This document shows, in pieces, positions 26,464 through 29,347 of a stretch of 64,000 bases of DNA. The stretch spans positions 103,316 through 167,315 of the forward strand of contig NZ_MEFG01000014.1 of the NCBI RefSeq assembly GCF_001724715.1, read 5' to 3'. The position numbers were made by a program, and so were the translations under genes. Position 1 is the first letter of the stretch; each line of letters opens with the position of its first letter. The notes beneath the pieces were generated by a model, which was not told the origin of the DNA, ran no database searches, and was given only the letters and a program-made list of their open reading frames with translations. Origin of the DNA: Sphingomonas sp. SCN 67-18. Its GTDB lineage: Bacteria > Pseudomonadota > Alphaproteobacteria > Sphingomonadales > Sphingomonadaceae.

Positions 26464-27477
26464 TCAGGCGAACAGGCCAGTCACCGTCGCGATCCAGTAG
26501 AAGCCAGCGCCGATCAGCGCCGCCGCGGGCAGGGTGACGACCCAGGCCACGACGATGCTGCTCGCCACGTTCCAGCGCACGGCGGACAGGCGCCGCGACG
26601 CGCCGACGCCCACGATGGCCCCGGTAATGGTGTGGGTGGTGGACACGGGAATGCCCATCGCCGTCGCCGTGAACAGGGTGATCGCCCCGCCGGTTTCCGC
26701 GCAGAAACCCTGCGCCGGGGTGAGCCGCGTGATCTTCGATCCCATCGTCTGGACGATCTTCCAGCCGCCGAACAGCGTGCCCAGCGCCATCGCCGCCTGG
26801 CATGAGATCACCACCCAGAAGGGCACGTGGAAGCCGCCGCTCAACATGCCCTGCGAATAGAGCAGCACGGCGATGATCCCCATCGTCTTCTGCGCGTCGT
26901 TGCCGCCATGGCCCAGCGAATAGAGCGACGCGGAGACGAGCTGGAGCTTGCGGAAGCTCTTGTCCGCGAAACGCGGCGTCGCCCGCGCGAACAGCCATGA
27001 AATGAGCAGCACCAGCAGCAGCGCCAGCACCAGCCCCACCGCCGGCGACAGCACGATCGCCGCCGACGTCTTGATGACGCCGCTCCACACCACCACCGGC
27101 AGCCCCGCTTTGGCGATGCCGGCCCCCAGCAATCCGCCGATCAGCGCGTGGCTGCTGCTGGACGGGATGCCCAGCGCCCAGGTGATCAGGTTCCAGCTGA
27201 TCGCGCCCATCAGCGCGCCGAAAATCACCGCCGCGTCGATAACGTCCGCCGCGACGATCCCCTTGCCCACCGTTTCCGCGACATGCAGCCCGAAGAACAG
27301 GAAGGCGATGAAGTTGAACCCCGCCGCCCATGCCACCGCGAATTGCGGGCGCAGTACGCGGGTGGACACGATGGTGGCGATGGAATTGGCCGCGTCGTGC
27401 AGCCCGTTCAGGAAATCGAAGACCAGCGCGACGCCGATCAGGCCGATCAGCAGCGGCAGCGATAATGTGGCGTCCAT
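26464..27477 (-). CDS. pit: PiT-family inorganic phosphate transporter
   Basis: A 337-residue inner-membrane protein with the PiT duplicated signature: FDFLNGLHDAANSIAT near residues 20-35 and LGHGGNDAQKTMGIIA in the second half, between about ten hydrophobic segments. It is a low-affinity phosphate (metal-phosphate) symporter. Its start is 22 bases downstream of a DUF47 gene, the usual accessory of PiT transporters. The stop lies 6 bases from that of the convergent amine oxidase gene. Confidence 0.95.
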   Translation of the reverse strand: MDATLSLPLLIGLIGVALVFDFLNGLHDAANSIATIVSTRVLRPQFAVAWAAGFNFIAFLFFGLHVAETVGKGIVAADVIDAAVIFGALMGAISWNLITWALGIPSSSSHALIGGLLGAGIAKAGLPVVVWSGVIKTSAAIVLSPAVGLVLALLLVLLISWLFARATPRFADKSFRKLQLVSASLYSLGHGGNDAQKTMGIIAVLLYSQGMLSGGFHVPFWVVISCQAAMALGTLFGGWKIVQTMGSKITRLTPAQGFCAETGGAITLFTATAMGIPVSTTHTITGAIVGVGASRRLSAVRWNVASSIVVAWVVTLPAAALIGAGFYWIATVTGLFA

Positions 27478-27499: not shown

Positions 27500-28141
27500 T
27501 CAGGCGTGGTCGATCACGAGACCCTGGATCTCGTTGGCGACGTCCTCGAACCGGTCGACCACCTTTTCCAGATGCCCGTAAATCTCGCGCCCGATGACGA
27601 AGGACATCGGGTCCGCATCGCCCTGCGCCTTGAACAGCGCCTTCAGCCCGGCATCGCAGATATCGTCGGCATGGCCTTCCAGGCGGACCAGCCGCTCGGT
27701 CAGCTCGTGCAGCCGGTTGCTGTTGTTGCCCAGCGAACGGAGCAGCGGAATCGCCTCCGCCGTGATCCGCGCCGCCTCGACGATGATGCCGCTCATGTCG
27801 CTCATCTGCGGCGGGAATTCGGTCACTTCATATAGGGTTATGGTCTTGGCCGCATGGTTCATCTGGTCGATGGCGTCGTCCATCACGCCGATCAGGTCGG
27901 TGATGGCGCTGCGGTCGAACGGGGTGATGAAGGTGCGGCGCACATCCTGCAGCACTTCGCGGATGATGTCGTCCGCCTCATGCTCGCGGTCCTGGATCTC
28001 CTTGCTGTAGGACGCGATGGTGTCGCCGCCCTGCAGCAGCCGCGCCAGCGCGTCCGCGCCGCCCACCAGCGTCGCCGCATGCGCCTCGAACAATTCGAAA
28101 AAACGCCCCTGCTTCGGCATCAATGCCTGGAACCACCGCAA
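27500..28141 (-). CDS. DUF47/PhoU-like protein associated with PiT transporter
   Basis: A 213-residue all-helical protein of the DUF47 (PhoU-like, TIGR00153) family, with RFFELFEAHAATLVGGADAL near the N-terminus and repeated helices with REHEADDIIREVLQDV and RLEGHADDICDAGLKALF, the metal-binding bundles of PhoU relatives. It is encoded directly upstream of the PiT gene and probably modulates phosphate transport. The start is taken as TTG 28141 (gives MRWFQALMPKQ) because AAAGGA lies about 9 bases upstream; ATG 28120 is the alternative. The same frame is open upstream through a NUDIX domain without a stop. Confidence 0.88.
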   Translation of the reverse strand: MRWFQALMPKQGRFFELFEAHAATLVGGADALARLLQGGDTIASYSKEIQDREHEADDIIREVLQDVRRTFITPFDRSAITDLIGVMDDAIDQMNHAAKTITLYEVTEFPPQMSDMSGIIVEAARITAEAIPLLRSLGNNSNRLHELTERLVRLEGHADDICDAGLKALFKAQGDADPMSFVIGREIYGHLEKVVDRFEDVANEIQGLVIDHA

Positions 28142-28735
28142 AATCGCTATCCTTTCGCCCCCGCGATCGCGGACCCATAGCAAGGCGCTCTGGGCAAGCC
28201 CAGCGGTCTTTGGGGGTTCGCGAAACCCGGCGATCATCGCCTTCAATTCCGGTTCCCTGACCGCCTCGGCCGCCTCGGCAAGGTCGAACCAGCGGGTGTC
28301 GCGCTCATGCCGTTCGGGCCAGTCGCCGAACTGGCTGAGCACGGCCAGCGGAAACACGTCCACCCTCGCCGGCTCGGACGGCCGGCGGCGGTGATGCTTC
28401 TGATATTGGTAGGCGCCAAGCGCGGTCGGGCAGGGAATGCCGGAAATGCCGGCTTCCTCGAACGCCTCGTGCGCGGCGGCCTGATGCGGGTCCAGCCCGC
28501 GAATGGGATTGCCCTTGGGAATGATCCAGCGGCGGGTATCGCGCGAGGTGATCAGCAGCACCTTGGCGGATCCGTCCGGCTCGATGCGATAGGGAAGGGC
28601 GGCGACCTGTTTTATTTTCTCGGCTCCTGCCGCAACGCGCGGCGCAATCCCTCCTGCATCATCCGCGGGATAAGCGGAAGGGGCAGATGATTGACCCGCG
28701 CCGGCTGTGTCCCCAGGGTGACAGCCGTCAGCCAT
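28142..28735 (-). CDS. NUDIX hydrolase, in frame with the DUF47 gene and lacking its own stop
   Basis: A NUDIX domain lies at about 28200-28615: ALPYRI, WIIPKGNPIRGL and the NUDIX box GLDPHQAAAHEAFEEAGISG (intact REx2EE-like core, here HEAFEEAG). The substrate is unknown; relatives hydrolyse diphosphoinositol or nucleoside diphosphate compounds. No stop codon separates it from the DUF47 frame, so a single fused protein of about 411 residues from ATG 28735 is possible. The best ribosome site (GCAGGAG) stands 8 bases before an ATA codon at 28615, which looks like a mutated ATG start. The coordinates mark the NUDIX part only. Confidence 0.65.
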
Positions 28736-28750
28736 GGAAGGACGATCGAT

Positions 28751-29347
28751 ATGCGCGTGCTCGGCGCGATCCTGGCCGGGGGAAAATCGACCCGCTTCGG
28801 CGCCGACAAGGCCGCCGCGCTGGTCGACGGCCGCGCGCTGCTCGATCATGTCGCAGACGCGCTGGCGGCGCAGACGGATGCGCTGCTGCTCTTCGGCCGC
28901 GCCTGGCCGGGGCTGACCGGCATCGCTGACCGTCCCGCGCCGGACCTGGGGCCGCTGGGCGGCCTGTGCGCGGCGCTGCGCCACGCAGCCGATGCGGGGT
29001 ACGGCCATGTGCTGACCGCCGGATGCGACGTGCTGCCGGTGCCGCCCGCGCTGCGTGAGACGCTGTCCGGACAGGGCGCCGCCATCGTCGCCGGCCAGCC
29101 GCTGTTCGGCTGGTGGCCCGCCGGGCTGGCCGACCTGCTCGACGCGCATCTGGCGAAGGGCGCGGACCGTTCGATCCGCGGCTGGGTGGCCGCGTGCGGC
29201 GCGCGGGTGGTGGCCATCGACACGCCGCTCGCCAACCTCAACACCCCCGCCGATCTGGCGGATTATCTGCGGCTCAGAACAGCACCGCGCCAAAGCGCAG
29301 GCCCACCACCAGCGCATCCGCCCGGCCCGCCGCCCAGCCGGGATTGA
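28751..29347 (+). CDS. mobA: Molybdenum cofactor guanylyltransferase
   Basis: A 198-residue MobA-type nucleotidyltransferase starting MRVLGAILAGGKSTRFGADK, the GTP-binding loop (LAGGxSxRFGxDK), then GPLGGLCAAL and the metal-binding ACD-like TAGCDVLPV. It attaches GMP to molybdopterin. GGAAGGACG precedes ATG 28751; the 20 extra residues from 28691 are not typical. The conserved domain ends near LADYL; a Pro-rich tail of about 25 residues is coded inside the 3' end of the convergent porin gene. The NUDIX gene is divergent. Confidence 0.9.
   Translation: MRVLGAILAGGKSTRFGADKAAALVDGRALLDHVADALAAQTDALLLFGRAWPGLTGIADRPAPDLGPLGGLCAALRHAADAGYGHVLTAGCDVLPVPPALRETLSGQGAAIVAGQPLFGWWPAGLADLLDAHLAKGADRSIRGWVAACGARVVAIDTPLANLNTPADLADYLRLRTAPRQSAGPPPAHPPGPPPSRD

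Follow-up and report, generated by a model that had tools for sequence, protein, structure and literature searches.

A NUDIX-DUF47 fusion gene of Sphingomonadaceae with a conserved, putative AUH start codon and a probable internal start ahead of DUF47

Where does translation begin in a gene that lacks an ordinary codon at the place where its start is expected? This question is raised by a locus in the window, i.e. the whole 64-kb stretch of Sphingomonas sp. SCN 67-18 DNA that was analysed, where a NUDIX hydrolase domain runs in frame into a DUF47 domain. An earlier note on this DNA had reported that no stop codon separates the two domains, that an ATA lies behind a good ribosome-binding site where an ATG would be expected, and that a second such site with a TTG precedes DUF47. 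All three observations are borne out by the sequence. The open reading frame listing gives one minus-strand frame from 29317 to 27500 without an internal stop. The ATA (28613..28615, minus strand) is preceded at 8 bases by the Shine-Dalgarno (SD) sequence AGGAG (28624..28628, minus strand), with a duplex energy of -6.6. The TTG (28139..28141, minus strand) is likewise preceded at 8 bases by GAAAGGA (28150..28156, minus strand), with an energy of -5.4. These energies, and all SD energies below, are those of the duplex with an assumed anti-SD sequence. We think it probable, at about 0.72, that one frame yields two proteins here: a scarce NUDIX-DUF47 protein started at an AUH codon, and DUF47 alone started internally, both serving the Pit phosphate transporter. 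Throughout, ATH or AUH stands for ATT, ATC or ATA, and an ordinary start is ATG, GTG or TTG.

Read from the ATA, the fusion frame encodes 371 amino acids (27500..28615, minus strand). Both domains pass their Pfam profile cut-offs, the NUDIX domain (28247..28582, minus strand; PF00293, E 5.6e-9) with 36.5 bits against 21.1, and the DUF47/PhoU_div domain (27512..28108, minus strand; PF01865, E 5e-41) with 140.8 bits against 24.4. With the NCBIfam model TIGR00153 the fusion scores 50.7 bits, under the curated cut-off of 104.3. Read from the TTG, the same frame would give a DUF47-only product of 213 amino acids (27500..28141, minus strand). A gene for a Pit-type phosphate transporter (26464..27477, minus strand; PF01384, E 7.4e-96) starts 22 bases past the DUF47 stop; DUF47/PhoU_div proteins are often encoded beside Pit. 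On the other side lies a divergent gene (28751-29347, plus strand), the product of which has a MobA-like NTP transferase domain (PF12804); the NUDIX frame is open far upstream, largely opposite this gene. No tRNA genes were found within the 64-kb window. An AlphaFold2 model of the 371-residue fusion has a mean pLDDT of 88.7; its first NUDIX strand comprises residues 2-11, and the region of the internal start is modelled with low confidence and is linker-like.

Is the fusion a property of more than one genome? Among 40 relatives searched, four other genera have the entire fusion in a single frame, at 58-74% identity. In a family-wide search 155 of 397 genomes matched, and among the matches listed there are 120 places with a full-length fusion, defined as covering query residues 1-5 to 373 without a stop. 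This comparison with relatives, which the earlier note had named as a check, supports the fusion itself. The start region was scored in 119 of the 120 places, and these 119 span 35 genera; the one missed by the start-motif script (L190) has an ATG start on inspection. One further fusion (L202), with an ATT start, was left out of the counts; its DUF47 frame is broken near the end, by assembly error or real loss. Beyond the family, all full-length places among the matches listed from an order search of 147 genomes belong to the family itself. When 190 genomes of the class were searched with the NUDIX part as query, a NUDIX-DUF47 fusion came up at two loci outside the family, L216 and L217, both from a single other family (f46); their frames likewise end in DUF47. 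In other families still, two NUDIX relatives (L234:1498-2457 and L237:910-1875) continue in frame for about 180 residues that are not DUF47. Presumably these extensions resemble a SixA-type phosphatase. Among the matches listed from the open-licence literature, there was no report of a NUDIX-DUF47 fusion and none of an AUH start in Sphingomonadales.

Viewed alone, an ATA and a missing stop resemble decay, and the earlier note had allowed for a NUDIX gene with decayed start and stop signals as well as for a sequencing error. That the NUDIX start and stop were lost in this one genome, or misread, has next to no chance of being right. An error is contradicted by the recurrence of the same features in independent species and assemblies; decay is contradicted by the conservation of the fusion, the AUH codon and its SD, and by a low NUDIX dN/dS. 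In 29 disjoint pairs of at least 85% amino-acid identity (22 with ATH in both rows, seven with ATG, GTG or AAG) the median dN/dS is 0.073 for NUDIX and 0.054 for DUF47. By this measure, purifying selection acts on the NUDIX part.

The outer start can be located in relatives because it lies four codons 5′ of a conserved AALPYR motif. At this aligned codon the 119 fusions have ATT 45 times, ATC 44 times, ATA four times, ATG 18 times, GTG twice and some other codon six times. Thus, 93 of 119 fusions, our own locus counted, from 30 genera have ATH. The six other codons are TCT, AGC, GCG, GTC, AAG and GAA, one each; in five of these six fusions an ATG lies upstream at a distance of two to five codons. 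The fusion with GTC (L137/L057) has a good SD, and the only ordinary codon upstream of it is a TTG 23 codons away; by analogy, this GTC may be a start like the GTC of Streptomyces sigR. At six of the loci (L178, L189, L195, L196, L197 and L199) an ordinary codon nearby is possibly the true start, which would bring the ATH count to about 87. The same codon class recurs in 27 further loci, with ATC in 19, ATT in five, ATA in two and GTC in one; these 26 of 27 ATH comprise 24 of 25 loci from another search, whose species are partly shared with the main set, and both loci of f46.

Could the protein begin at an ordinary codon further upstream? The earlier note had proposed that the fusion is made from the ATG at 28735, which would give the NUDIX part a longer N terminus. 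The frame is indeed open to this ATG and beyond, and 42 of the 93 ATH relatives have some in-frame ATG, GTG or TTG upstream, within 10 codons in 18 and only beyond 10 codons in 24. In the other 51, from 22 genera, there is none back to the upstream stop. As a control, an ordinary start is available in frame for all 111 located pit loci (8 of 119 were unlocated), a figure that, like the count of 51, measures the availability of start codons. Downstream initiation fares no better: in these 51 fusions the first ordinary codon lies 6 to 37 codons in, and initiation there would cut into or remove the first NUDIX strand. In the window itself, the ATG at 28735 has no SD (energy +0.3) and lies 40 codons 5′ of the conserved start. 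Since 51 of 93 relatives also lack any such codon, initiation at this ATG is unlikely, and we judge the in-frame stretch from it to the ATA (28616..28735, minus strand) to be non-coding. No counterpart of this stretch was seen in the upstream regions of the relatives, and the window's long open frame is mostly opposite the divergent gene.

The SD signal points to the AUH codon as well. At the 93 ATH sites the mean energy is -6.67, with 78 at -5 or below and 15 weaker; 81% of them have G at position -10, and 68% have it at -11. Of ten offset controls at the same 93 loci, one gave a mean of +1.2, eight gave means between -1.7 and -3.2, and one gave -5.15. The last of these, at offset +600, offers the poorest contrast, as 57 of the 93 loci reach -5 or below there. 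In 29 of the 93 ATH sites there is no exact match to an SD substring of at least 4 bases. Where an ordinary codon does exist upstream, the SD is stronger at the ATH codon in 35 of 42 fusions (in three of them by less than 0.4); it is not stronger than that of the same-frame upstream rival in six, and in one no ordinary codon lay within 45 codons. Altogether, we consider translation of NUDIX from an ordinary upstream start very improbable.

The weak start seems to accompany the NUDIX part rather than the fusion. This is suggested by NUDIX relatives without DUF47: five of the seven examined (L204, L205, L206, L208 and L209) have ATC at the start position, two of these five without any upstream ordinary codon. 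The other two have ATC directly after a TTG (L210) and CTC with an ATG six codons upstream (L207). The NUDIX match of L208 has an in-frame TGA inside. A NUDIX relative at L006 has TAT at the start position.

We now turn to the inner start. In the window the TTG lies two codons 5′ of a conserved WFQ, and an ordinary start codon lies three or two codons upstream of this motif in 109 of the 118 junctions located among the 119 fusions. The SD energies of these 109 codons average -6.71, with 88 at -5 or below and 21 weaker, against a mean of -2.84 and 435 of 2264 at -5 or below for the other in-frame ATG, GTG and TTG codons of the fusion genes. Furthermore, loci with DUF47 only, i.e. those where the match spans DUF47 and begins at query residue 107 or later, have an ordinary start at the identical place in 49 of 49 located cases (10 of 59 were unlocated). 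The SD of these starts is weaker, with a mean of -5.53 and 28 of 49 at -5 or below. On the strength of these sequence signals, we conclude that the TTG ahead of DUF47 is probably a retained internal start.

How could a start codon come to lie inside a fusion? In one locus (L203) the NUDIX gene adjoins a separate DUF47 gene. On a plasmid of Lichenicola cladoniae the two are annotated as separate genes; this is the only record with at least 80% query coverage among the best 20 of 537 plasmid records. Since NUDIX is found beside a separate DUF47 in these cases, and since the place of the DUF47 start is shared, the most likely origin of the fusion is a pair of adjacent genes, with the DUF47 start retained. 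The same history suggests another reading, in which the fusion, started at the AUH codon, is the sole product, and the internal site is an unused relic of the once separate DUF47 gene. A relic is what the adjacent genes of L203 and Lichenicola cladoniae would lead one to expect, and in nine of 118 fusions the internal site lacks an ordinary codon. However, a relic does not sit easily with an ordinary codon kept in 109 of 118 junctions and an SD at or below -5 in 88, over deep divergence and in a linker-like stretch. We regard the relic as possible, though distinctly less probable than an internal start that is in use.

What would two starts of such different quality do? On the two-protein reading, the strong SD would guide ribosomes to the ATA at 28615 and give the 371-residue NUDIX-DUF47 protein at a low rate, because AUA, AUC and AUU match the initiator tRNA poorly and are disfavoured by initiation factor IF3. 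Other ribosomes would use the TTG at 28141, which has an SD of its own, and produce only DUF47, the putative PhoU-like partner of the Pit transporter that is encoded next. The scarce long form would then tie a DIPP-like diphosphate hydrolase to Pit or to the same site. The sequences retain the elements that this scheme calls for, as far as comparison can tell: the frame, the AUH codon with its SD, the internal start with its SD, purifying selection on both domains, and an AUH codon in infC (see below). From these we infer the use of both starts, their ratio, a dependence on IF3 and an action at Pit.

Low output and sensitivity to IF3 are likely for an AUH start, by analogy with results from Staphylococcus, Streptomyces and in vitro translation. 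According to PMC5472188, hardly any non-canonical start codons of bacteria have been characterised by experiment. One that has is the GTC start of Streptomyces sigR, for which the same paper describes repression by IF3 as experimentally shown. In poor medium, Staphylococcus reporters with AUU or AUA reach about 10% of the AUG level; in rich medium the rise is clear for ccpN, modest for citZ and absent for cvfC1 (PMC13009471). In vitro, more IF3 leads to a smaller full-length share for AUU read by a CAU anticodon (PMC10158994).

The infC gene, which encodes IF3, is itself a known case, with ATT in E. coli and ATC in Streptomyces (PMC5472188). In our comparison Sphingomonadaceae infC appears to begin with ATA (mostly), ATC or ATT behind GGAG or AGGA in 27 of 27 located genes (30 loci, L245-L274). 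For two of them (L255 and L266) the first choice of our script was a different codon, whose SD is weaker; L259 has an ATT and an ATC next to each other. The fusion gene, as judged by its sequence, thus fits into a class of genes with a conserved non-canonical start and an SD, i.e. infC, pcnB, sigR and ccpN.

Is AUG avoided at the outer start? In the start-codon comparison no selection against AUG was seen: the third base changes like nearby synonymous (fourfold) sites, with three changes between G and non-G at the start codon and four and five at codons A5 and A6. Because the third base drifts in this way, we do not claim such selection. Mapped on a tree, the start codon needs at least 21 changes among ATT, ATC and ATA and three between ATH and ATG or GTG; the tree was built by a quick method and some of its long branches were flagged. 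A start-specific preference for ATT was also considered, as ATT makes up 45 of the 93 ATH codons against 10% of isoleucine codons in the gene body. The neighbouring isoleucine codon is just as often ATT (36 of 70), so the share of ATT is a 5′-end effect and was dropped as evidence.

These results bear on whether the outer start responds to anything at all. It may simply set a constant low dose, unresponsive to IF3 levels, and we give this only slightly less than even odds. A third base that drifts like a synonymous site agrees with a constant dose, as do the outputs of about 10% of AUG in poor medium and the lack of a rich-medium rise for cvfC1 in PMC13009471. The title of a pcnB AUU paper cited there also calls pcnB translationally limited. 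The repression of a non-canonical sigR start by IF3, in PMC5472188, speaks against a constant dose, and so does the fact that Sphingomonadaceae infC shares the codon class. A more speculative possibility, which we hold to be rather doubtful, is that the AUH start couples phosphate handling to translation. The ratio of NUDIX-DUF47 to DUF47 would then follow that of free IF3 to ribosomes, and the operon would be under the control of phosphate at transcription and of IF3 at translation. If true, a shortage of IF3 relative to 30S subunits would attach more diphosphate hydrolase to the Pit system, the nudix-DUF47-pit genes and infC would share an IF3-sensitive codon class in Sphingomonadaceae, and one frame, with its outer start weak and its inner start strong, would act as a ratio setter.

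The transcriptional half of such a dual control would lean on Pho-box-like direct repeats, present in about half of the species. Within 150 bases upstream, repeats with a score of at least 11.5 occur in 64 of 119 relatives, as against 0.46% of shuffles, which keep base composition only, and 0 of 119 inner windows; the scoring was devised after the repeats had been noticed, making this a lead rather than a blind test. In some relatives the repeats sit directly ahead of the SD. The window has only a weak candidate (about 28707-28724), and we do not claim a Pho box for it: the best score there is 10.8, which is matched by 2.5% to 6.7% of shuffles. The repeats in relatives, the place of the gene before pit and the fusion to DUF47 together tie this gene to phosphate.

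What might the NUDIX part hydrolyse? The Nudix box is GX5EX7REUXEEXGU. In a 57-row alignment E50, E53, E54 and G56 are invariant, which corresponds to its core EUXEEXG; none of the conserved columns holds the box's first E or its R. The nearest solved relatives by sequence are the diphosphoinositol polyphosphate phosphohydrolases DIPP1-3 and DDP1: the 18 matched solved sequences comprise 16 with the name DIPP or DDP1, one named MS0616 (2duk) and, as the weakest, an Ap4A hydrolase. Among fold matches (Foldseek) to NUDIX proteins, the best are again DDP1 and DIPP, at 23-28% identity. The earlier note's suggestion of inositol-polyphosphate-like signalling therefore has a real basis in these relatives, but other substrates are judged likelier. 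Bacteria are not known to signal with inositol pyrophosphates, and for this reason we infer that inorganic polyphosphate or a dinucleoside polyphosphate is most likely the substrate. Aps1 of fission yeast cleaves both inositol pyrophosphates and inorganic polyphosphate (PMC11323792). The DUF47 part matches the PhoU-like protein 3l39 by sequence (phmmer E 3.3e-23) and by fold (Foldseek E 1.6e-11).

These results are of use in several ways. An AUH start can be read here by comparison alone, across 30 genera of one family. By combining a poor outer start with an ordinary inner one, a single frame would fix the ratio of its two proteins, and the long one is predicted to join a hydrolase of diphosphates or polyphosphate to Pit's PhoU-like partner. 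Start prediction mostly presumes ATG, GTG or TTG, and gene finders restricted to these codons are expected to misplace the start of the fusion.

Finally, how does this gene compare with known systems? The DUF47/PhoU_div proteins 3l39, 2olt and 2iiu share a domain family with the fusion but have no fused NUDIX. In DUF47 genes without NUDIX, the position of the start matches the internal start of the fusion. DIPP1-3, DDP1 and Aps1 are alike as the nearest solved relatives of the NUDIX part, in sequence and in fold; they are eukaryotic and are not known to be fused to DUF47. The closest parallels for the start itself are found elsewhere. Like the fusion gene, infC combines a non-canonical start with an SD, and in Sphingomonadaceae this start appears to be AUA, AUC or AUU too. 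However, infC encodes IF3 and autoregulates, and it is no fusion that keeps an internal start for a separate domain. In sigR, as described in PMC5472188, a non-canonical start lowers one protein relative to a partner from the same operon, which is the effect that we propose here; the difference is that two genes are involved (sigR and rsrA), that the codon is GTC and that repression by IF3 is experimental. Staphylococcus ccpN (AUA) and cvfC1 (AUU) resemble the fusion gene in having conserved AUA or AUU starts behind a strong SD, whereas their SD is of the extended Firmicutes kind, they encode single proteins and they are backed by ribosome profiling and reporters, all according to PMC13009471.
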